DNA of 64,000 bases. It comes from Candidatus Aenigmatarchaeota archaeon. GTDB lineage: Archaea > Aenigmatarchaeota > Aenigmatarchaeia > GW2011-AR5. Every line of letters begins with the position of its first letter. Within the stretch, counting starts at the first letter, position 1. A model generated the notes under the pieces. The model was not told the DNA's origin. It worked only from the letters and a program-made list of their open reading frames with translations, and ran no database searches. Location of the stretch: the NCBI GenBank assembly GCA_016187335.1, contig JACPJW010000001.1, forward strand, positions 192,547 through 256,546, in the 5' to 3' direction. Both the position numbers and the translations under genes were made by a program. Shown here piece after piece: positions 15,660-61,925 of this stretch.

Positions 15660-16133
15660 TGCACATCGCCGTTGTCTTGCAGTTGAGGGTTAGCGCATGT
15701 TTTCGCGATTTTGTGCCTTAGGAAAATTAAAGGCTAGCATTGGCGTAGGAGAGCGTGGGCTGAATAGCTCGCCGAAGCTTGCTACTTACACCCCGCTTCC
15801 ATACCTGGTCGTCTTGCCAGTGCCGACTGCCTATTTTCGAGAGCGGCTTGGGGCTTAGATGCTTTCAGCCCTTATCCGCGTATGGCGTAGCTACCCGGCA
15901 ATGCCTTGTCAGACAACCGGTACACCAGAGGCCACGGAAGGATGTTCCTTTCGTACTTATCCTTCCTTTCTCTCAGGCAAAAGCACCTCCAGCAGATATA
16001 GACCAAACTGGCTCACACCGTTCTGAACCCAGCTAACGTGCCCTTTTAATCTGTGAACTCCAGCACCCTTGGCGGCTGCTGCACCGCCAGGAGAGGACGA
16101 GCCGACAGCGACGCCGCAACGCGCGGGGTCGAT

Positions 16134-16217
16134 TTGTTCTCTGGATTCTGCGATCTAAGTTTGACTACCTCAGGCTATTCCAGCTGAGAATATGTAGACA
16201 ATGTCGCAGATCCGGAT
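16134..16217 (-). other. 23S mini-intron, 84 nt (domain V)
   Basis: It interrupts GAGAGUUCUU | AUCGACCCC, which joined matches the conserved AAGAGCACAUAUCGACCCC. BHB: central helix GUUC/GAAC, bulges UUA and AAA, long inner helix. Not of the two repeat families. Confidence 0.82.
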
Positions 16218-16245
16218 AAGAACTCTCACCCGCCACGACACCATT

Positions 16246-16345
16246 ATAGGGTAAAGTAAACCTATAGCTAGTTGCTATCTAAATCTAACTAAATCTAATT
16301 TGTTAGCAGACCCAGACTGCGACTTAGCTTCCCGGCTTACTTCAT
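16246..16345 (-). other. 23S intron, 100 nt, in the GGGGAUAA region
   Basis: Exons CCCCGGGGAU | AAUGGUGUCG restore the universal GGGGAUAAC-like block of the peptidyl-transferase centre. BHB: central GGGG/CCCU, bulges AUA and AUA, inner helix UGAAGUAA/UUUACUUUA. Confidence 0.85.
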
Positions 16346-17176
16346 ATCCCCGGGGTAGCTTTTTGAGACCGAAGTGCTCATAATCTGAAGCCTTTCGAGC
16401 TTCATTGCGTTCAGCAACCCAAAATTAGCATGAAATTTTCTGACCATCTCCTCGCCGTAAATAGCGAAGGAGTAATTCGATATTGAAGAGCATTTTATTT
16501 CAAGCCCTTCAAGAACCGAAATTATGAACCTCAATGAACTCTCGTCTTTCTGGGTGAAAGTTATCCTCGCCCGCTTGTTCTTGACGTTTGCGGAAGGAAC
16601 ATGGCCTTCCGCGTCGAAGAATCCGGCAATATAGGACTTCTGGATTTCTATATCCGAAGCCCTGATTATCTCCGGAACCGACTTGTGAAGTTTCCCGTCA
16701 ACCATCATACTGATCATGTAGTATAACGGCTTGGACGAGATGTCAAGGTACTTTTCACCTATATGCTTCTGGTACCTTACGTGCGGGGTCACTTCGAAAA
16801 TCCGCTGGAATATATCGCGCAGACTTTCGACCCAAGTTGAGTTTGCAGAATCATAAATCCGCACCCAGTGCTTTCCTTTCGAGCGAATCAAGGAACCGTC
16901 CCGCATTGCGCCTAGAAGATATGCCAATTGCAGTGTTAGTTCTTCTGGCACTTTAACTCGTGTATATGCTGAACCGGTTCCTGATTTGAGGTGCGTTACA
17001 GAACCAATAATTTCAGGATATTTCTCCGCCAGAAAGGAAAGCGGGAAGGAATTCAGTCTTTTCCACTTCCTTATCTTGCTGCTTTCTATGCGAATTTCCA
17101 TCAATCTTGGTTCCAGGATCTCTGCTCTTACCGTAGTGCCGGTTTCCAGAATTCCCTGGAGTAACTTAAATTTCAT
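16337..17176 (-). CDS. LAGLIDADG homing endonuclease in 23S intron
   Basis: A 279-residue protein with two LAGLIDADG helices, LAYLLGAMRDGS (near residue 86) and SYIAGFFDAEGH (near 185), the second carrying the acidic residues that hold metal. Such enzymes cut the intron-less allele and drive intron homing. An N-terminal basic extension of about 80 residues (SKIRKWKRLNSFPLSFL) may bind DNA. The gene lies almost wholly in the intron; its last codons run past the probable 3' splice site into the exon. It resembles the endonuclease at 48569-49180 in 16S (PELAYLLGAMRDxS, FFDAEG). Confidence 0.9.
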   Translation of the reverse strand: MKFKLLQGILETGTTVRAEILEPRLMEIRIESSKIRKWKRLNSFPLSFLAEKYPEIIGSVTHLKSGTGSAYTRVKVPEELTLQLAYLLGAMRDGSLIRSKGKHWVRIYDSANSTWVESLRDIFQRIFEVTPHVRYQKHIGEKYLDISSKPLYYMISMMVDGKLHKSVPEIIRASDIEIQKSYIAGFFDAEGHVPSANVKNKRARITFTQKDESSLRFIISVLEGLEIKCSSISNYSFAIYGEEMVRKFHANFGLLNAMKLERLQIMSTSVSKSYPGDMK

Positions 17177-17183
17177 TGAGGCT
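16366..17183 (-). other. 23S intron with LAGLIDADG gene (boundaries approximate)
   Basis: About 820 nt between exon blocks CUGACC and AAAAGCUACCCC. AAAAAGC is present at both ends, so the exact splice point is ambiguous. GACC/GGUC can form the central helix but a good inner helix was not found by hand. Confidence 0.75.
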
Positions 17184-17361
17184 TTTTGGTCAGAGTAGAA
17201 TATAAGGATTGCTGAACTGGGGTGAACACTTCGCGTTTTCTCATGTCACAGCCAGCCATCCAGGCCAAGCTGCGTATCGCTAGCTCACGCTTTCACGGTT
17301 GGACACCATTCTGTTAGGAGTCCAATCAATGCAGCTTTTGCGCTTGCACTCTACCCTCGAT

Positions 17362-17407
17362 AATCAGGAAACTTTCCGTTTTGATGAAACTTTTCTGAAA
17401 AGTTTCT
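17362..17407 (-). other. 23S type 1 mini-intron, 46 nt
   Basis: Joined exons CCUCGGUCAGAA | AUCGAGGGUAGAG match the archaeal block ending in AAAUCGCGCGUAGAG. BHB: central UCAG/CUGA, bulges AAA and UUA, inner helix GAAACUUU/GGAAAGUUUC. The first AAAAGUUUC and the linker AUCAAAACGG lie between. Confidence 0.9.
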
Positions 17408-17445
17408 TTCTGACCGAGGTGAGCTGCACTTAGAGGGCGTCTGAT

Positions 17446-17488
17446 ATTAAGTCTAGCAGAGCGTTCTTCATTGCTAGCCCTGCAGGAT
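17446..17488 (-). other. 23S probable mini-intron, about 43 nt
   Basis: An extra segment within the hairpin closed by GCGUCUGA/UCAGACGC; archaeal 23S has only about 11 loop bases here. Central helix AAAG/CUUA has one mismatch, so the site is less secure than the others. Confidence 0.55.
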
Positions 17489-17798
17489 ATCTTTTCAGAC
17501 GCGTACCGCCCCAGCCAAACTGCCCATCTGTTACTGTCCCATAGCTATGCTATGGTAAGCAGTAAAGTCGAAAAAGGTCGGTGTTACACTTTCGACTCCA
17601 CGCCACCTTACAGCAGCGCTTCGACGTCTCCCGACTACTCTATACAATCCCGACTTTACCACAACAACAGACTGCAGTAAAGCTCCACGGGGTCTACTCT
17701 TCCCACTGGAGGTCCCTGGCCTAATCACCAGGACAATAGTTTCGCCGAGTTCCAGCCCGGGACAGCGACCACCTCGTTAATCTATCATGCAGGCCAAC

Positions 17799-17926
17799 GT
17801 TTACAGCCCCTTCCTGATATGTTCTTGCGCAGAAAGCGTAAGCTTTCTGGCATCTCAAAGAGCTTTGCTCTTTGCAGATTTCCGCAAGCGCTTTTCTTCC
17901 AAGAAAAGGGCTTCAAGAAAGGGCTT
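17799..17926 (-). other. 23S type 2 intron with nested hairpin pair, 128 nt
   Basis: Exons CCAAUUAAAU | GUUGGCCUGCAUGA restore the 7-base loop of the conserved helix before CCUGCACGA. BHB: central UUAA/GUAA (one A-G), inner AGCCC/GGGCU. It carries CCCUUUUC, GAAAAG, CGCUUGCGG and then a complete paired-hairpin repeat (17830-17872). Confidence 0.82.
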
Positions 17927-17944
17927 ATTTAATTGGCAAGGGAT

Positions 17945-18017
17945 TTAGCGAACCCTCTGTCGCCATGACAGAACGTTGAGTCTCACGCAAGCGCCCTTTG
18001 CAGTGCAAAAGGGGTTT
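17945..18017 (-). other. 23S type 2-like mini-intron, 73 nt
   Basis: Exons AAGGUAGCGUA | AUCCCUUGCC restore AAGGUAGCGAAAUUCCUUG, one of the most conserved 23S blocks. BHB: central AGCG/CGCU, bulges UAA and AAA, inner AACCC/GGGUU. Contains CCCUUUUGC/GCAAAGGG and linker CGCUUGCG. Confidence 0.88.
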
Positions 18018-18039
18018 TACGCTACCTTAAGACCCTCAT

Positions 18040-18081
18040 CACCGACGAAGCACTGTCATCTGATCAGACGTGCTTCAGTCT
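18040..18081 (-). other. 23S probable mini-intron, about 42 nt
   Basis: Extra bases between CCCUAACUCU and AUGAGGGUCUUAAGG, where the conserved form is GUAACUAUAACGGUCCUAAGG. It contains GAAGCAC/GUGCUUC. Exact splice bases not resolved. Confidence 0.6.
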
Positions 18082-18673
18082 AGAGTTAGGGCCGGCCTAC
18101 AGCGGGGCTTAGCCCGGTTGAAACCAGGTTTGACACACCACTAGTGGCCACGACTCACTGACCATAGAAAGCCTTTCGACTTGTCGGTCAGTTACGTTTT
18201 TGTTAAACAGTCGGGTGGCCCTTGTCACTGCGACCTGCTTGTCCCCAAGCAGGCATGCGTTCTACCGAAGATACCGCACTAATTTGCCGAATTCCCTGGG
18301 CTGGATTATCTCGAACACCTTCGCCTTCTCGGCGAGGGGCACCTGTGTCGGTTATTGGTACGAGCAGCCCACACCGTAACCTGCCTGCTTTTTTAAGAGC
18401 TCCGGGAATCGCCCGAACTTCCCTAAAGGGAAGCCGTTCGCATCTTCCTCAGGTTCTCGCCATGATGACACTCCCCCGAGTTCAATGCTTAAGCATGGCG
18501 ACGGCCATGCTCAGGATATCCCGAAGCGTTAGCGGCAGGATAAGTATCGGCTGGTTCCGGAATATTAACCGGATTTCCTTTCCCGCGCGTCTTCCTAAGA
18601 GCACGGTTAGGATCGACTGACCCCCAGAAGATAAACTTTACTGGGGAACCCTTGCCCCTCAGGTGGTAGGGAA

Positions 18674-18986
18674 TTGAGTGCAAGAAGAAGGTGAATTAGC
18701 GACTTTCACGAAGTGCTTTAATGAAATAAATACCTAATGTTAATCCGGATACAAGCTTCGCTGCACCGGTCCAAATAAAAGAAGGGTTACCGGTTGCTCG
18801 ATAAGCCATAATATCGGTAGCTCCGTCTGCTAAAAGACTTACGCTACCGACTGGAATTCCTATAGCAGTAACGTATGGATTCATTTCCTGTGAAATTCTT
18901 TCAATTCTGTCTGGAGGTTTTTGAAATTCCATATGTCACTACTAATAGATGAGAATTTAAAGCCTATCATTCGCTTTTTGGAGCTT
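18674..18986 (-). other. 23S insertion of about 313 nt carrying a protein gene
   Basis: The insertion separates GCGGGAA-like and UUCCCUACC exon arms. GAAGAAG (18984-18990 on the sense strand) and CUUCUUC (18684-18690) could form an inner helix, but no strict BHB was found. Most of it is the membrane-protein gene below with its own promoter. Confidence 0.7.
18696..18932 (-). CDS. Small membrane protein encoded inside 23S, 78 aa
   Basis: Starts MEFQKPPDRIERISQEMNPY, then two hydrophobic segments (about residues 20-36 and 52-72, SFIWTGAAKLVSGLTLGIYF) and a basic end KALRESR. ATG 18932 has a TATA-like CTTTAAATTC about 26 bases upstream on the sense strand, so it can be transcribed leaderless from its own promoter. 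It has no endonuclease features. Its presence in an rRNA insertion is unexpected; either it rode in with an element or the intron tolerates cargo. Confidence 0.65.
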   Translation of the reverse strand: MEFQKPPDRIERISQEMNPYVTAIGIPVGSVSLLADGATDIMAYRATGNPSFIWTGAAKLVSGLTLGIYFIKALRESR

Positions 18987-19183
18987 CTTCCCGCATTTCT
19001 CGCCCTACTAATGCTACTCCCACCAGGATCCTCTTTGCTGCAAGGTCCACACTTCCTCACGGAAACGCTTCTGCCCTCGCAGCACGCCTCCTTACCACTT
19101 GCGATTGCTCACAAGTCCGCAGTATCGGTGGTTTCCTTAGCCCCGTCCATTTTCTCCGCCTTGACTCTCGATGGGTCCGCTAT

Positions 19184-19347
19184 TTCGCGGAAAGCCCCTT
19201 TTTCTTGTAAGAAAAAGTCCCTTGGGTTCAAAAAGAACTTTAACTCGCTTCGCTCGGATATTATTTTTAATAATATAGCGAGCATTAGCGAGCCTTGTGT
19301 CTTTCTTTTCCCAAGGGTTTTCTTTCTTCAGAAAGAAAAGGCTTTCT
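19184..19347 (-). other. 23S intron, 164 nt
   Basis: Exons AACGCGUA | AUAGCGGACC restore the conserved GCGUAAUAGC. BHB is perfect: central CGCG/CGCG, bulges UAA and AAA, inner GAAAGCC/GGCUUUC. Inside are stacked hairpins (UUUUCUUUC/GAAAGAAAA, CCCUUGGG/CCCAAGGG, GCUCGCUA/UAGCGAGC-type repeats). Confidence 0.9.
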
Positions 19348-19660
19348 TACGCGTTGTTTAAATGGTGGCTGCTTCTAAGCCAACATCCCCATTGTCTGAG
19401 AATCAGGACCAGATTCAGTGACACTTAGAAAACACTTTGGGACCTTAACTGCAGTCCGGGTTCGTTCCCTCTCGGATACCAGAATTACTCCGGCACCCTC
19501 ACTCCCGCTCACGCGATAACGGATTCGGAGTTTGACAAGGCAGGTGGGGATCTCTCCCCTTGGCTGTCTAATCAGTGCTCTACCCCGTTATCTGCTAAGA
19601 GCGAGGCTGTCCTGAGAGACATTTCAGGAGGAACCAGCTATCACCAGATTCGATTGGCTT

Positions 19661-19729
19661 TTGGTGTTCGCGAATAGCATACTGAATCTGCGAACAGCAA
19701 ATTCAGAATAGCTTTAGCTATTCTCGAAT
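19661..19729 (-). other. 23S mini-intron, 69 nt
   Basis: Exons GGGGUGAA | AAGCCAAUCGAAU restore GGGGUGAAAGGCCAAUC. BHB: central GGUG/CACC, bulges AAA and AAA, inner UUCG plus GAAUAGC pairing with GCUAUUC plus CGAA. Confidence 0.88.
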
Positions 19730-19835
19730 TTCACCCCTAACCCCAGGTCACCCGAAGGGTTTGGACCACAACCGGTAACAGGCCTCCACCCGCCTTTCGG
19801 CAGGCTTCGCCTTGCCCAGGGCTAGATCATCTGGT

Positions 19836-20738
19836 CGCCCGGTCAGAGAATGAGTTTTATGAGGTTTGTATGAATATCAGATTTTGTTTTGCCCAATTCG
19901 CTTGGCTTTAAGCCATATGAATTGGCAGCGAATTTCAGAAGTTGTGATTTTGGAATTCCCTTCCATAATCCATTTCCGCTAATTTTCACGCCTTCAACAA
20001 AGCCGATTTCCCTTTCAAATTTCTTTATGTTCTCAGGTTTTCTAAGCAACACTGCATCTTTCAGCATTGTTGGCTTGTACCCAAGTTTTTCAAGCAACCC
20101 GAAGTATTGTTTCCTAAGATTTGGATGTTCTGAATAAAGTTTTACGCATCTGTCGAAACGGAAACCGTATCTTGCCTTTCCGATATTGAAGATTACAGTT
20201 CCATCTCCGGTGAATGCGTATCTTAGAAATTGCTTTCCGAGTTCAGAGTTGCTTAAGATGAACTCCGGAATTATTGTTCCCGGATATTTGTTTTCTGCTT
20301 TGTTGTAGGCGAGCGTTCTGTAAGACGGCGAATAACTAATGAGCTCTGCGGCAGCCTTTCTGCTTATTCCACTCTTGACTTCCCATGAACCTTTGTAGAT
20401 TCTTTTTCGAAGTTTAAGATGGAAAATCTCGAAGATGAGCCTTTCAAATTCCGCAACAAGTTCATTGGAGTTAGAAGTGAAAGAAATACTCCATAATCCC
20501 GATTTCTTGTTGCACCAAAGGCTGCCGTCTGTAATCAGAAGCCCTATTAGTTGAGCCATCTTGCCTTGTCTTTCATCAATCTCATTAATTTCGGTTTTGC
20601 CGAAATTTTGATTAATGAAATTTAATTTCATGCTTGTTATTAAGGCGAAGCGGGCTTATCTTGCTTTCGTGTCGAAGACCGAAAGAAAGAATATGTCCCG
20701 CTGAGCCAGATAACAAACCTCTAACTCACTCCCCGACT
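19836..20738 (-). other. 23S intron with LAGLIDADG gene, 903 nt
   Basis: Exons AGACCCGAA | ACCAGAUGAUCUAGCCC restore the conserved GACCCGAAACCGGGUGAUCUA block. BHB: central CCCG/CGGG, bulges AAA and CGA, inner GUC/GAC followed by GAGUGAG/CUCAUUC. Confidence 0.92.
19843..20631 (-). CDS. LAGLIDADG homing endonuclease in 23S intron
   Basis: A 262-residue protein with motifs QLIGLLITDGS (near residue 27) and FLRYAFTGDGT (near 134), each with the catalytic Asp. It is divergent from the other two endonucleases here, in spacing and in its short second motif, so it was probably acquired independently. The ORF nearly fills the intron and stays within it. Confidence 0.9.
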   Translation of the reverse strand: MKLNFINQNFGKTEINEIDERQGKMAQLIGLLITDGSLWCNKKSGLWSISFTSNSNELVAEFERLIFEIFHLKLRKRIYKGSWEVKSGISRKAAAELISYSPSYRTLAYNKAENKYPGTIIPEFILSNSELGKQFLRYAFTGDGTVIFNIGKARYGFRFDRCVKLYSEHPNLRKQYFGLLEKLGYKPTMLKDAVLLRKPENIKKFEREIGFVEGVKISGNGLWKGIPKSQLLKFAANSYGLKPSELGKTKSDIHTNLIKLIL

Positions 20739-21482
20739 TTCGGGTCTTATTCCAGTGACTTCCGCGCTTTCACACGGGGCGCCTCGCTGCCTGCGCGCGC
20801 TCGCTTTCGCTGCGGTTCCCTTAGTTAACCTTGCCACTAGAATAAACTCCCTGGCCCGTTTTTCAAAACGGACACCGCTTTTGTTTCTCTTGCGAGAACG
20901 TTAGGCGGCTAACTGTAGCTGCCAGGTTTCAGGTTCTTTTCAGCACCTATTACGGTTGCTTTTCAGCTTTCCGTCGCCGTACTAATGCGCTATCGGACTT
21001 GACGAATATTTAGGATTGGGTCTGAATGCGACCCGCGTTCCGACTCCAAATCCGAGGAATCGTACTCTGGATACCCGCCGTTGCACTTCCTGCCTTCCCT
21101 TACGCGGCTATCACGCTGTGTCGCGCCCCTTTCCAGGGGTCTTCGGGTCAGCAGGCAAGAGCAGGCACGGGTCCAAACACCACATTGCCCCGCACTCGTC
21201 GCGCAGGGCTTCGGTTTGTCCTGTTCCCTTTTCACTCGCCGTTACTGGGGGAATCGAATTTCTTTCTTTTCCTGCCCTTACTAAAATGTTTTAATTTTGG
21301 GCGTTCGCCCTTCAGAACAGACTTCCGCATCTTTCAGATGCGGGATTTATCTCTGAAGTTGATGCCTATCGGCATTGGGCAATCTCCGGTTCAAAGGCTG
21401 CATGCGCCTACCCGGAGCTTATCGCAGCTTGCCACAACCTTCGTCGCATGTCAAGCCAGGCCATCCTCCTGACAGCTTGGGA

Positions 21483-21519
21483 GCTAGCTATCTTCTTTCC
21501 TAAGGCGTTCGCCGCTAAC
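21483..21519 (-). other. 5' half of the 23S processing stem
   Basis: On the sense strand GTTAGCG, GCCTTAGGAAA and TAGCTAGC stand just before the 23S 5' end. Perfect complements TTTCCTAAGGC (15715-15725), CGCTAAC (15689-15695) and GCTAGC (15733-15738) follow its 3' end. The stem would loop out the whole 5.7-kb 23S region for pre-rRNA cutting. Confidence 0.85.
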
Positions 21520-42347: not shown

Positions 42348-42438
42348 TGGACTGGTCGGGACTTTCACCAACTTTGCTTCCTCTTTTGATCAAACTTTGG
42401 AGCAGCAAAGTTTGCTTTGAACCCGAAGCCTCCTGGCT
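42348..42438 (-). tRNA. tRNA-Ala 3' half with a T-loop intron (split tRNA or truncated copy)
   Basis: Sense order: AGCCAGGAGGCU, T-stem UCGGG, loop UUCAAA, intron (42415-42362, 54 nt), U, CCCGA, acceptor CCAGUCC and A73. The intron has a BHB with central UUCA/UGAA, bulges AAG and AGU, and a type 1 core (AAACUUUGC, CAAAGUUUG, AUCAAAAG, GCAAAGUU). No 5' half is upstream; the ATPase gene ends 13 bases away. Compared with the intact tRNA-Ala, the T-stem differs but still pairs (UCGGG/CCCGA against CUGGG/CCCAG), which argues for a functional RNA rather than debris. Confidence 0.7.
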
Positions 42439-44000: not shown

Positions 44001-44010
44001 GTGTTTCAAT

Positions 44011-44310
44011 GGACTGGCTGGGATTTTCAGAACTTTTCACCGTTTTCCTCGAAGAACATCAGTTCTTCGGGATCTCGGAGAACTATCGTTCTCCACAGAT
44101 GATCAAACTTTTGTGAAAAGTTCGTTTGAACCCAGAGCCTCCTGCTATCTTGTTTGCCTCTTTTGATCGAACTTTGGAGTAGCAAAGTTCGTTGCAAAGC
44201 AGGCGATCTTCCTTCTCCGAACCCTTTTTGCTTCGCAAAAATCGTTCACGGAAAAACTTCTTTCCGTAGACGCTTTCTTTTTAAGAAAGGGTCTGTTGAT
44301 CTACCAGCCC
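44011..44310 (-). tRNA. tRNA-Ala(UGC) with three introns
   Basis: Exons 44310-44293, 44211-44193, 44147-44126 and 44024-44011 join to a 73-nt tRNA: acceptor GGGCUGG/CCAGUCC with the alanine identity pair G3-U70, D-stem GAUC/GAUC with GG in the loop, anticodon loop UUUGCAA, T-loop UUCAAAU. Intron 1 (D-loop, 81 nt, 44212-44292) is type 2 with further hairpins; its splice bases are inferred from the mature fold only. Intron 2 (position 37/38, 45 nt, 44148-44192): central UUUG/CAAG, bulges CAA and AUA, hairpin CGAACUUUG. Intron 3 (position 59/60, 101 nt, 44025-44125): perfect BHB, central UUCA/UGAA, inner helix of 11 bp, carrying a paired-hairpin repeat (44051-44095). Confidence 0.88.
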
Positions 44311-47131: not shown

Positions 47132-47248
47132 AGGAGGTGATCCAGCCGCACGTTCCCGTACGGCTACCTTGTTACGACTTAGCCCTCCTTGCAGACAATT
47201 GATTCGACTTATTCAGCATAAGCCTCACCAAAAGTCCACTCGGATGGC

Positions 47249-47280
<32 letters not shown>

Positions 47281-47294
47281 CATTCAGCGAAAGA

Positions 47295-47484
47295 TTCCAC
47301 GATTATGAGATCATCATAGTGCTGCTTCTACTCGACCAAAGACATCCGCCCATACTTTTAATCACCAGACCGCTACGGATTTCTTTCCGTAGACGCTTTC
47401 TTTTTAAGAAAGGGTCTTCATAGTCAAGCACTTCTTCTGTCTTTGATTTTGTAGCGCCAAAAAATCATTTGGATCTCACATCCA
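47295..47484 (-). other. 16S intron 10, 190 nt, with nested type 2 core
   Basis: Exons GUAAGCGAAGGUCAUCA | UCUUUCGCUGAAUGCG rebuild the conserved hairpin before the decoding helix. BHB: outer GCGAAGG/CUUUCGC, central UCAU/GUGG, bulges CAU and AAU. A 37-nt type 2 core (47381-47417) inside is identical to one in tRNA-Ala (44258-44294), so an element has inserted into this intron. Confidence 0.85.
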
Positions 47485-47843
47485 TGATGACCTTCGCTTA
47501 CTAGGGATTCCGGCTTCACGTGGGCGAATTGCAGCCCACGATCTGAACTAGGCGCCGGTTTGAGAGATTGGCTTCACCTCACGGTGTTGCATCCCATTGT
47601 CCGACGCATTGTAGGCCGCGTGTAGCCCCGGAAATTTAGGCCATACTGACCTGCCGTAGACCGCTCCTTCCTCTGGCTTAGCGCCAGCGGTCCCGCTAAA
47701 GTGCATGCCCTGCGTACAGGACATTCGCAACTAGCGGCACGGGTCTCACTCGTTTCGTGACTTAACACGACACTTCACAGCACGAGCTGACGACGGCCAT
47801 GCAGCACTTCTCAGTTTGTTAGGTAACCCCTTTAGAGTGACCC

Positions 47844-48416
47844 TCATTCTACTGTCTTCCCGGGTGAGGTCTCCAGAGAGGAATCCTCATATTTCCAAAG
47901 AATGCGTTTGCCTTCATTCTTTCTTGCCACACTACGCGCGGATTCAAGGTCGCGCAATGTTTCCCTTATTGTGCTTGGCATCAATCTTAATCCAAGGCAC
48001 AATTCTCCTATGCTCCACCACTTATCATTTTTTCTGATCAACGCAACTATCTTCTCTTTCGTTGAAGCTTTGTTGCGCATGAAGCCGCCTTTCATCCCTT
48101 CTCTTTCCAAGAGAAGCTTCGCCCATTGATTCTTAATCGGTTCCGCAAATTCCCCTGCAATGGAATAAATCTCCCTGAAAGCATTCCTATGCAGCTTGAA
48201 GCCGATGTTTTCTCTTTTGACGAACTTTTTGCTTGCCCAGCCATGCGCTTTGCAGACCTCAAAAATAGTGTTAAGCTGATTTCTGTTTCTGCTTGACTGA
48301 ACAAGCACAGGCGACTCTTCAGCTATAAAGCTGAATTCAAACTCGATTAGTGGAAGGAGTATAGAAGCTGTAAGTTTTTGCCTTTCTTTGCTCGCTCGTA
48401 AACACTTATCATCCAT
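47844..48416 (-). CDS. 16S intron-encoded protein with winged-helix C terminus
   Basis: 190 residues. The middle (WASKKFVKRENIGFKLHRNAF, then IYSIAG and KLLLEREG) and the C-terminal helix-turn-helix (STKEKIVALIRKNDKWWSIGEL, then TIRETLRDLES) look like a DNA-binding protein. A clear LAGLIDADG motif is absent, so it may be a degenerate endonuclease or a maturase-like protein. It begins in the intron and its last nine codons run into the 16S exon. Confidence 0.7.
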   Translation of the reverse strand: MDDKCLRASKERQKLTASILLPLIEFEFSFIAEESPVLVQSSRNRNQLNTIFEVCKAHGWASKKFVKRENIGFKLHRNAFREIYSIAGEFAEPIKNQWAKLLLEREGMKGGFMRNKASTKEKIVALIRKNDKWWSIGELCLGLRLMPSTIRETLRDLESARSVARKNEGKRILWKYEDSSLETSPGKTVE

Positions 48417-48469
48417 AGTACTGTATACTTTGGATGATTTATTGGTTTCCGTACTCGAGTATTCCTCTT
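47871..48469 (-). other. 16S intron 9, 599 nt
   Basis: Exons CAACGCCAGGA | ACCUCACC restore the conserved CAACGCGAAGAACCUUACC block. BHB perfect: central CCAG/CUGG, bulges GAA and AGA, inner AGAGGAAU/AUUCCUCU. Confidence 0.92.
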
Positions 48470-48489
48470 TCCTGGCGTTGAATCCAATT

Positions 48490-48529
48490 TTCGGCCCAAG
48501 CCAATGATATACGTTTCACTGAACTCGGT
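48490..48529 (-). other. 16S intron 8, 40 nt
   Basis: Exons GCGGUUU | AAUUGG restore GGUUUAAUUGG. BHB: central CGGU/GCCG (one U-G), bulges UUA and AAA, inner CCGAG/CUUGG. Only 40 nt, with no repeat-family core. Confidence 0.9.
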
Positions 48530-48568
48530 AAACCGCAGCCTCCACCCCTGGTAGTGCTCCCCCGCCAA

Positions 48569-49180
48569 TTAGGGGAAAGTAATCCCATCATTTAGCAGCT
48601 TCAATCTGAGCTGCTTATCCTTGTGCCAACTTCCGATGTTTTTGCAGAAGTATAGAAGATTGTTCTTCCTTGTCAGCCTGAATTCCCAGACATTACCGCA
48701 AAAGGTAATGTTTGTTGGCTGGCAACTTTGATCAATCAAAACCTGTCTAATGAATTCCAAAGATTCCCTGTTTTTCTGGCTGAACGAGATGTATTTCTGT
48801 TTCGCTGTATCTGGTTTCTTTGGAAGTCCTCCTTCTGCATCAAAGAATCCTTTCAAATAGTGAATTTGAATTTTCACTTTCTGTTCCTTTATGCATTTTG
48901 GAGTATCCCAGAATTCCTGCGGTGTTTCGAAATCGGATATATCGAGAATTTTTTCAACATAGCTTCTTCCGTTAATCCTCAGTATTTCCGTTCCGTTTGC
49001 ATGTTTTGTTATGGTGCCGCGAGCTTCAAACTCTTTATGGAAAAGAGTTTGCAAAAGGCGTAACCATGATGTCTCTCTTTGTGCTATTTTAATTTCGTAG
49101 TTTTTTCCTTTCCTGACATCTATGGATGCGTCTCTCATAGCACCTAACAGATACGCAAGTTCTGGGCTGACAGGCTTCAC
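48569..49180 (-). CDS. LAGLIDADG homing endonuclease in 16S intron
   Basis: 203 residues with LAYLLGAMRDAS (near residue 8) and YLKGFFDAEGG (near 108), both with catalytic acids. No N-terminal extension. Related to the 23S endonuclease at 16337-17176, so one homing enzyme lineage has reached both rRNAs. Its stop codon lies exactly at the 3' splice region of the intron. Confidence 0.92.
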   Translation of the reverse strand: MKPVSPELAYLLGAMRDASIDVRKGKNYEIKIAQRETSWLRLLQTLFHKEFEARGTITKHANGTEILRINGRSYVEKILDISDFETPQEFWDTPKCIKEQKVKIQIHYLKGFFDAEGGLPKKPDTAKQKYISFSQKNRESLEFIRQVLIDQSCQPTNITFCGNVWEFRLTRKNNLLYFCKNIGSWHKDKQLRLKLLNDGITFP

Positions 49181-49232
49181 TCTATAACTTTGGCAGCAGG
49201 GATATTTAAGTGTGGTATCGGGGTTACTTTCT
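48569..49232 (-). other. 16S intron 7, 664 nt, between A919 and U920 (E. coli)
   Basis: Exons ACUUAAGGGAA | UUGGCGGGGG. BHB perfect: central AGGG/CCCU, bulges AAA and AAU, inner GAAAGUAA/UUACUUUC. The site falls in the 907-926 universal primer region and equals the known archaeal intron position 919. Confidence 0.95.
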
Positions 49233-49362
49233 TTCCCTTAAGTTTCAGCCTTGCGGCCGTAATCCCCAGGCGGCCCGTTTAACGCCTTCGCTTCGGCACC
49301 ACGGATCCACGAAGGATTCGTGACACCAAACGGGCAACGTTTACAGCTAGGACTACCGGGGT

Positions 49363-49444
49363 CTTTAGGACCCTTTTGCGATTTTATTCGCGGTAGCGTG
49401 ATTTCCGTAGACGCTTTTACGCGCTTGCATGCGTAAAAGGGTCT
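49363..49444 (-). other. 16S intron 6, 82 nt, type 2, between 793 and 794
   Basis: Exons GGAUUAGAU | ACCCCGGUAGUCC restore the universal 806R primer site. BHB perfect: central UUAG/CUAA, bulges AUA and AGA, inner GACCCUUUU/AAAAGGGUC. Contains GCGUAAAAG and CGUCUACGG. Confidence 0.95.
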
Positions 49445-49455
49445 ATCTAATCCCG

Positions 49456-49488
49456 AATGAACTCGACTAAGATTTTCGTCTTAGTTCG
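49456..49488 (-). other. 16S intron 5, about 33 nt
   Basis: Extra hairpin AACUAAGA/UCUUAGU between GGGAGCGAAU and CGGGAUUAG, where archaeal 16S reads GGAGCAAACGGGAUUAG. Exact splice bases not resolved; no strict BHB found. Confidence 0.6.
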
Positions 49489-49544
49489 ATTCGCTCCCCT
49501 AGCTTTCGTCCCTCACCGTCGGACCCGTTCCAGCCAAGCGCCTT

Positions 49545-49588
49545 ACGTGGAAACTTTTCCGTTTTGATTGAATTTTTTGAAAAGTTCA
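49545..49588 (-). other. 16S intron 4, 44 nt, type 1
   Basis: Exons CUGUGGCG | AAGGCGC restore the universal GUGGCGAAGGCG. BHB perfect: central GUGG/CCAC, bulges CGU and GUA, inner GAACUUUUC/GGAAAAGUUU. Linker AAUCAAAACGG present. Confidence 0.95.
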
Positions 49589-49792
49589 CGCCACAGGTGG
49601 TCCCCTACGGATTAAAAGATTTTACCCTTACCCGTAGAGTACCCTTGGCCTCTCCCGGTCCCAAGCCCGATAGTATCTCCAGCAAGCCTTACAGTTTGCT
49701 GCAAGATTTCACCAAAGACACATCGAGCCGGCTACGGACGCTTCAGGCCCAATAAACGTGACTACCCCTCGTGGCGCGGTTATTACCGCGGC

Positions 49793-49843
49793 ATCCAGAT
49801 CCTTTTCCGTCAACGCTTTTGCGTCTTCAGACGTAAAAGGGTT
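49793..49843 (-). other. 16S intron 3, 51 nt, type 2, in the 530 loop
   Basis: Exons GCCAGCC | GCCGCGGUAA restore the most conserved 16S block (between 523 and 524). BHB: central CCAG/CUGG, bulges CCA and AUG, inner ACCCUUUU/AAAAGGAU. Contains GCAAAAG and CGUUGACGG. Confidence 0.95.
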
Positions 49844-49882
49844 GGCTGGCAACCGTCTTGCCCACCACTTATTCCTCCACCT

Positions 49883-49937
49883 ATGTAATCCTTTCTTCCG
49901 TTTCTTTCGCAAGCGTTTTCTTTTCGAAAGAAAAGGC
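49883..49937 (-). other. 16S intron 2, 55 nt, type 2
   Basis: Exons CUCCACUGUAAAA | AGGUGGAGGAAUAAG match the helix-17 hairpin GUGUAAAAAG seen in methanogens. Central GUAA/UUAC, bulges AAG and AUA, inner CCUUUC/GAAAGG; one unpaired A makes the BHB slightly relaxed. Linker CGCUUGCG. Confidence 0.85.
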
Positions 49938-50004
49938 TTTTACAGTGGAGAAAAGACAGCGCTAAGCGCTGCCACTCAGGGTTCCCTTGTCAGGCTTTCA
50001 CCCA

Positions 50005-50054
50005 GTTTGCGAACTTTTCAGTTCCGTTTTGATGGAACTTTTCTGAAAAGTTCC
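50005..50054 (-). other. 16S intron 1, 50 nt, type 1
   Basis: Exons ACCUUUGCAA | UGGGUGAAAGCC restore the conserved CAAUGGGCGAAAGCC. BHB perfect: central UUGC/GCAA, bulges AAG and ACU, inner GAACUUUUCAG/CUGAAAAGUUC (11 bp). Internal GAAAAGUUCC and AUCAAAACGG. Confidence 0.95.
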
Positions 50055-50060
50055 TTGCAA

Positions 50061-50093
<33 letters not shown>

Positions 50094-50407
50094 CGTTCAT
50101 GTCTCAGAACGCATCTCCGGGCTATCGCTCTCACGACCCGTACGGATTACAGCCTTGTTGAGCAATTATCTCAACAACAAGCTAATCCGCCGCAGTCCCA
50201 TCGTTCAGTGCATTGCTGCTTTCAGCGAAGATGCCTTCCAGCAATTATCGCCTATCGGGTATTATTCCCACTTTCGCAGGATTATCCCCGTCTGAACGGC
50301 AGGTTAACTACGTGTTACTGAGCAGTGCGACGAGGTCTTGCACCTCACGTCTCGCATGGCTTAGCCGAACCCTGATAAAGGTAGTCTCCGGCGGGATCAA
50401 CCGGAAT

Positions 50408-61658: not shown

Positions 61659-61683
61659 TTAAACTTTCTTTTAAGAAAGTTTA
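61659..61683 (-). repeat. Solo type 1 element after tRNA-Leu
   Basis: Sense: directly after the tRNA 3' end, TAAACTTTC, loop, GAAAGTTTA then ATCAAAG. Same layout as after 16S. Confidence 0.7.
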
Positions 61684-61854
61684 TGCGGGAGACGAGATTC
61701 GAACTCGCGAAGCGAATCGTCACCTTTTCCGTGCACGCTTTTGCACAGCAAAAGGGTGCTAACGCACTACCCGTTTGCGAACCTTCCCTTTTGATTGAAC
61801 TTTTGGGAAAAGTTCACCTCAAGGTAGCCCCTTTGGCCGCTTGGGTACCCCCGC
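61684..61854 (-). tRNA. tRNA-Leu(GAG) with two introns
   Basis: Exons 61854-61817, 61772-61760 and 61714-61684 give an 82-nt type II tRNA: acceptor GCGGGGG/CUCCCGC with A73, D-stem CCC/GGG, anticodon loop UUGAGGG (GAG), variable arm GCG UUA CGC, T-arm GCGAG UUCGAAU CUCGU. Intron 1 (37/38, 44 nt, 61773-61816) is type 1: central UUGA/GCAA (one A-G), inner GAACUUUUCCC/GGGAAGGUUC, linker AUCAAAAGGG. Intron 2 (variable arm, about 45 nt, 61715-61759) is type 2: CACCCUUUU, GCAAAAG, CGUGCACGG, AAAAGGUG; its splice sites are less certain. TATA-like GCTTAAATAA lies upstream. Confidence 0.88.
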
Positions 61855-61925
61855 AATGCATTAAAATTATTTAAGCTCCCTTTGGATGCAAAAGTATTTT
61901 ATGGCAAAATACAAAAGTATGATTA

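Follow-up and report, generated by a model that had tools for sequence, protein, structure and literature searches.

What the three introns of a single archaeal tRNA gene are made of, and how they came to be there, is the question raised by the minus strand of a 64,000-nucleotide stretch of DNA from a tiny, uncultured Aenigmatarchaeon. This stretch, here called the window, corresponds to C2:192547-256546 of a 1.01-Mb two-contig assembly that is 90.8% complete. A sequence-only reading had proposed a tRNA-Ala(UGC) gene with introns in the D, anticodon and T loops, and our analysis agrees with this: four minus-strand exons join to GGGCTGGTAGATCAACGGAAGATCGCCTGCTTTGCAAGCAGGAGGCTCTGGGTTCAAATCCCAGCCAGTCCA, which ARAGORN calls as tRNA-Ala(tgc). 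ARAGORN finds nothing in the unspliced gene. The gene is built as follows.

44010-44310, minus strand: tRNA-Ala(UGC) gene of four exons and three introns (ARAGORN on spliced exons; match to the tRNA-Ala of relatives)
44295-44310, minus strand: exon 1, GGGCTGGTAGATCAAC (boundary from D loops without introns in Ala(GGC) and relatives)
44213-44294, minus strand: D-loop intron, 82 nt (comparison with intron-free D loops; ARAGORN)
44193-44212, minus strand: exon 2, D loop to position 37 (ARAGORN on spliced exons)
44147-44192, minus strand: anticodon-loop intron (37/38), 46 nt, relaxed splicing motif (ARAGORN on spliced exons)
44125-44146, minus strand: exon 3, positions 38 to 59 (ARAGORN on spliced exons)
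44024-44124, minus strand: T-loop intron (59/60), 101 nt, strict bulge-helix-bulge (BHB) motif (BHB layout scan)
44010-44023, minus strand: exon 4, the 3' side of the T stem, acceptor CCAGTCC and A73 (ARAGORN on spliced exons)

The joined exons contain the G3-U70 pair and the UGC anticodon that had been read from the sequence, and they give a standard tRNA in ARAGORN, as is expected of archaeal BHB tRNA introns. BLAST with the spliced exons matches them to the tRNA-Ala genes of relatives. Some details of the sequence-only reading had to be adjusted: the tRNA is 72 nt and not 73 nt long, and the gene runs from 44310 to 44010 instead of 44011, with the discriminator A73 one base further. The anticodon-loop junction after 44193 (37/38) was placed rightly, whereas the canonical BHB rule cuts the T loop after 44125 (59/60) rather than after 44126. 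The D-loop junction had been put after 44293; we place the end of exon 1 at 44295, since GATCAAC|GGAAGATC is what D loops that lack an intron read, both in the paralogue Ala(GGC) at C1:28537 and in relatives. ARAGORN accepts either D-loop junction, and the choice therefore rests on this comparison. A second, intron-free tRNA-Ala(UGC) gene, which the same reading had named as counterevidence, was not found, nor was any other Ala(UGC) gene, in 5'-end searches and BLAST with the spliced tRNA over the 90.8% complete assembly. The sole further Ala gene from this BLAST was Ala(GGC), with one anticodon-loop intron. For annotation it matters that ARAGORN in default mode misses the tRNA-Ala(UGC) gene and labels the nearby tRNA-Leu(GAG) as tRNA-Phe.

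Another tRNA-Ala 3' fragment, found by eye at 42348-42437 of the window, directly follows an ATPase/DUF234 gene and holds a T-loop intron of the HP1b type described below. Its possible identities are a split tRNA, the remnant of an attachment site, or a pseudogene. The first of these was rejected, as no 5' half was found among all GGGCTGGTA sites of the assembly.

The T-loop intron has the textbook BHB with an 11-bp inner helix that had been claimed for it: the T stem CTGGG/CCCAG, a central helix UUCA/UGAA and the 3-nt bulges AAC and AAU are all found. We scanned for this layout, requiring a T stem, a helix of 4 bp, two bulges of 3 nt each and 4 bp or more of inner helix, and it occurred at 7 places in about 217 kb, each followed by an acceptor-like end; there was none in the reversed control and none in the congener contigs scanned. 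The 4-bp helix between exon loop and intron end covaries, being UUCA/UGAA in Ala, Arg and Ile, UCCA/UGGA in Phe, and UUCG/CGAA in Trp and two family-B introns. The T-loop intron has this 3-4-3 motif, but a strict BHB was not found for the D-loop and anticodon-loop introns of the same gene; a central helix UUUGC/GCAAA was read by eye in the latter. A splicing endonuclease that might process these motifs is present, with EndA at C2:410532-410810 in a 202-aa frame. Its identity is 90% to Candidatus Aenigmatarchaeota NC_groundwater_1120, 52% to two further Aenigmatarchaeota and 29-49% to the other archaea tested. It is similar to the catalytic subunit of N. equitans, with which it shares a Lys-rich insertion missing from the M. 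jannaschii enzyme, and analogous loops have been linked to relaxed substrate use (PMC12397907).

An inspection of the intron sequences and their matches indicated that they contain short palindromes that recur throughout the genome. Targeted stretches totalling about 217 kb served to study the contexts of these repeats, and genome-wide numbers come from a covariance-model search. One such repeat, HP1, is NNAACTTTT..AAAAGTTNN+ATCAAAA, that is, two variable bases, AACTTTT, a short loop, AAAAGTT, two bases complementary to the first two, and the tail ATCAAAA. There are roughly 95 copies at E<0.01, or about 95 per Mb, and the window alone has 8 occurrences of the hairpin core against 0.15 expected from dinucleotide shuffles. 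In the model alignment the seven inner pairs are invariant and the two outer pairs vary on both sides; the outer pairs are complementary in 61 of 64 strict copies in the sampled sequence (10.8 expected by shuffling). A second repeat, family B, reads CCCTTT..hairpin..AAAGCG with three covarying pairs and an (A/G)CGGAAA tail. It has 27 matches in about 217 kb, and its outer triplets are complementary in 23 of 26 strict copies (4.6 expected). HP1 is nested within family B at C2:903791, C2:525032 and C1:53603. The copies in the tRNA-Ala(UGC) introns, together with the arms of the T-loop inner helix, are these.

44261-44294, minus strand: family-B element AGACCCTTTCTT..AAGAAAGCGTCTACGGAAA, at the start of the D-loop intron (family-B pattern, triplet covariation)
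44161-44191, minus strand: HP1b hairpin CGAACTTTG..CAAAGTTCG with ATCAAAA, in the anticodon-loop intron (the Ala fragment has a near copy in its T loop)
44100-44124, minus strand: HP1 hairpin CGAACTTTTCACAAAAGTTTG with ATCA, in the T-loop intron (covariance-model match C2:236641-236670)
44113-44123, minus strand: 5' arm of the 11-bp inner helix, GAACTTTTCAC, shared with the local HP1 hairpin as its 5' arm (BHB layout scan)
44077-44094, minus strand: first hairpin of the paired-hairpin repeat, GGAGAAC..GTTCTCC (related copies at C2:894272, 81583, 554808 and 77642)
44051-44068, minus strand: second hairpin of the paired-hairpin repeat, GAAGAAC..GTTCTTC (BLAST and reading of the matched loci)
44030-44040, minus strand: distal third arm of the inner helix, GTGAAAAGTTC (BHB layout scan)

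The paired hairpin had been seen as a guest nested in the T-loop intron. That two element types are combined there holds, but the description falls short, as every intron of this gene holds a dispersed hairpin copy, whether HP1, family B or the paired hairpin. BLAST with the T-loop intron gives a copy 94% identical over 114 nt in the tRNA-Phe T loop, along with many shorter matches at other loci. The two T-loop introns nevertheless differ in the pairing block, which is altered jointly with the exon.

HP1 is found by inspection as T-loop introns in Ala, Phe, Ile(UAU), Trp, Arg and Ile(GAU), as D-loop introns in Thr, Arg, Trp and others, and as anticodon-loop introns in Leu and Ser, with HP1b in Ala; the isotypes of all tRNAs other than tRNA-Ala(UGC) were read by eye. 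Its cores also make introns in 16S and 23S rRNA, again by inspection. Within the window the following copies lie in other RNA genes.

61773-61816, minus strand: HP1 three-arm intron, 44 nt, in the anticodon loop of tRNA-Leu(GAG) (gene 61683-61855; absent from the congener G001)
50025-50054, minus strand: HP1 core of a short 16S rRNA intron, third arm downstream (pattern match and inspection)
49560-49588, minus strand: HP1 core of a second short 16S rRNA intron (pattern match and inspection)
17377-17406, minus strand: HP1 core in the intron-rich 23S rRNA gene (pattern match and inspection)

The 23S gene (15729-21492, 5.8 kb) and the 16S gene (47132-50407, 3.3 kb) are both lengthened by several introns. 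Three of the rRNA introns have LAGLIDADG frames (16337-17176, 19843-20631 and 48569-49180), and several others are short hairpin introns.

Most HP1 copies lie outside RNA genes and have no third arm. Many are intergenic, and some of these stand directly after stop codons or tRNA 3' ends; the orientation of intergenic copies relative to genes is too noisy to use. Two open frames span HP1, a multicopper-oxidase-like frame at C2:888710 and another at C2:18590, and in both it would be read through in frame.

Tandem HP1 arrays with a period of about 40 nt and 3-4 copies each were seen in Methanobrevibacter curvatus (L102, L124) and in L175. Multi-intron tRNAs are frequent in the present genome. The tRNA-Trp at C2:821240-821560 has apparent D-loop, anticodon-loop and T-loop introns, and its anticodon intron combines family B with a possible box C/D RNA. 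A tRNA from C2:431502 on has anticodon-loop and T-loop introns and, by eye, the anticodon UAU (Ile), which is unusual in archaea. At C2:738831-739025 the 16 nt that begin a tRNA (GCCGAAGTGGCTCAGT) are present twice, with HP1 in between; the second occurrence starts the complete gene, and the tRNA-Ala of G007 has a like layout of 16-nt first exon, D-loop-intron remnant and complete gene. As both repeats start exactly at tRNA nucleotide 1, they could reflect an RNA-mediated step of gain or loss.

What sets the intron form of HP1 apart is a third arm. We examined whether the sequence past the ATCAAAA tail re-pairs with the first arm over 11 positions, and it does so at 10-11 of the 11 in 13 HP1 copies. 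Eleven of these are in tRNA or rRNA genes or the Ala fragment, one is just 3' of a tRNA and one is elsewhere. The usual intron form thus consists of HP1 plus a third arm, and two mutually exclusive foldings would therefore be available to it, the local hairpin and the BHB inner helix.

Comparison with G001, a syntenic member of the same genus with roughly 65-82% nucleotide identity over long matches, bears on whether the hairpins were inserted. The tRNA-Leu(GAG) of G001 is without the 44-nt intron, reading TTGAGG|GGGTAG continuously with the 104 nt downstream identical. Its tRNA-Phe is without the T-loop intron (GGTCCAAATCCC) and has an identical variable-region insert, and its tRNA-Ile(UAU) is without the T-loop HP1 intron. 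HP1-based introns in three tRNAs are thus absent at the G001 sites, as an introner-like family would have it. At the G001 gene junction TGAATG, the present genome has about 50 nt with HP1b. Altogether the element is absent in G001, with intact flanks, at at least 14 of about 20 comparable syntenic sites, a count that leaves out a few non-orthologous anchors; a multicopy repeat with empty sites in a relative is what is expected of a MITE. At C1:7954 (compared with L308, G001) HP1 is kept in both, and the paired hairpins next to it show compensated changes between the two genomes in each stem. A target duplication is not seen at the tRNA-Leu insert, and 2-4 bases are ambiguous at the T-loop sites. 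HP1 copy number at E<=1e-4 ranges from 0 to 58 within one family.

The tRNA-Ala of G001 was not found in its 56% complete assembly, and the Ala introns were therefore compared in other relatives. Among these, tRNA-Ala(UGC) is intron-free in G009 and G037, has an anticodon-loop intron only in G006 and G016, and has D-loop and anticodon introns of other sequence in G008. The T-loop intron is absent in all relatives checked, which supports, without proving it site by site, that it was probably gained here rather than lost elsewhere. For single presence/absence sites, precise loss in G001 could be an alternative.

We take it as probable that mobile palindromic repeats become tRNA introns because EndA removes them. 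The tRNA-Ala(UGC) transcript would be cut at three places by EndA and its exons rejoined. The introns would be, or be built on, short palindromic repeats (HP1, family B and the paired hairpin) that move, presumably by insertion, within this Aenigmatarchaeota lineage; that they are mobile-repeat copies is well supported by repeat identity and the clean empty sites. A repeat inserted into a tRNA or rRNA loop would survive because it can be removed as a BHB intron. In the form usual in RNA genes, the third arm downstream of the ATCAAAA tail would re-pair with the first arm into the BHB inner helix, and the last four bases of the intron would pair with the exon loop. As for the mobiliser, a Y1 transposase (PF01797) is absent from this assembly and from G001, both incomplete, and neither another mobiliser nor a partner autonomous transposon for HP1 was found. 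Mobilisation of the REP/RAYT kind was rejected on the lack of a Y1 transposase in the assembly. A viral origin was also rejected: the strict HP1 pattern has no match in IMG/VR, and a looser one has 10 matches, in AT-rich contigs of uncertain provenance.

The nearly identical Ala and Phe introns at the same T-loop position might instead reflect transposition from intron to intron, as proposed for Thermoproteales, where such transfers are reported (PMC4090602), with the intergenic hairpins being escaped introns and not the source. The near confinement of the third arm to RNA genes would fit this. We consider it unlikely, however, given that most HP1 copies lie outside RNA genes without that arm and that the two-arm core is widespread in other archaea. 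The exact pattern AACTTTTnnnnAAAGTTTGATCAAAA was found in at least 115 stretches, and the 80 among the matches listed are all archaeal, with hosts in Methanosarcinales, Methanobrevibacter and relatives, ANME-1, Altiarchaeota, Micrarchaeota, Woesearchaeota, Diapherotrites and Aenigmatarchaeota. Of 134 copies among the matches listed, ARAGORN puts 10 in tRNA genes with introns and 7 no more than 60 nt from a tRNA, so that the two-arm core there is mostly outside tRNA genes.

The strict invariance of core and tail, the covariation of the outer pairs and the several copies that abut stop codons or tRNA 3' ends would also suit conserved functional RNA motifs, for instance signals for 3' ends or for processing, that had arisen repeatedly and been taken up into introns without being mobile. 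Such immobile motifs are very improbable in view of the sites that lack the hairpin in the congener with flanks intact, the variable copy number within one family and the exact insertions in tRNA loops; some intergenic hairpins may nonetheless be conserved for a regulatory role. Finally, the three-intron gene might be a decaying pseudogene, the normal Ala(UGC) gene being located in sequence that the assembly lacks, as the incompleteness of the assembly and the nearby Ala 3' fragment could suggest. With all exon helices intact, a perfect T-loop BHB and so many other multi-intron tRNAs in this genome, that is barely credible.

The preferred reading, mobile hairpins retained as removable introns, points to where archaeal tRNA introns may come from and suggests that tRNA and rRNA loops could be safe harbours for short repeats wherever EndA is permissive. 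The repeat family, the intron form and the empty sites are found side by side in two congeneric genomes, and gain, splicing and movement are therefore directly testable. A far broader and doubtful extension is that archaea have domain-wide introner-like elements. These would be very small hairpins whose third arm can switch; they would move as RNA, the excised intron being reverse-spliced and then copied back into DNA, and form a general source of new tRNA and rRNA introns.

No description of repeat-built archaeal tRNA introns was found in the open-licence literature, where the motif strings occur in one paper only, an unrelated one on Marinobacter genetics. A three-intron archaeal tRNA as such is a known kind, with tRNA-Pro(UGG) of Pyrobaculum islandicum as the precedent (PMC4090602), and what is new is the material of the introns. 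That single gene likewise has several introns, of which one is canonical and two are non-canonical, and a T-loop BHB, whereas here the host is an Aenigmatarchaeon and the intron cores are dispersed repeats found in intergenic, ribosomal and coding sequence as well. Transposition of tRNA introns in Thermoproteales (Fujishima 2010), as far as it is described in PMC4090602, is similar in that nearly identical introns share a position in different tRNAs, as Ala and Phe do here; it differs, within that description, from the present case, in which the shared sequence also occurs outside RNA genes, a congener has empty sites and the exon-pairing block covaries. Rickettsia palindromic elements (PMC10969869) are also short palindromes inserted in many unrelated genes; some of them are read through in frame, as may hold for two HP1 copies here. 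The hairpins studied here are unrelated in sequence, shorter, archaeal and, in RNA genes, apparently removable as BHB introns. REP/REPIN sequences with RAYT transposases (PMC3116915) share the short dispersed hairpins and a conserved motif beside the stem. They differ in their transposase, no Y1 enzyme having been found in this assembly. We know of no intron role for REPs. Introners, which are mobile spliceosomal introns (PMC11782384), are alike in being a repeat family that creates new introns, with the difference that here removal would be carried out by EndA at BHB motifs in tRNA and rRNA and not by the spliceosome.
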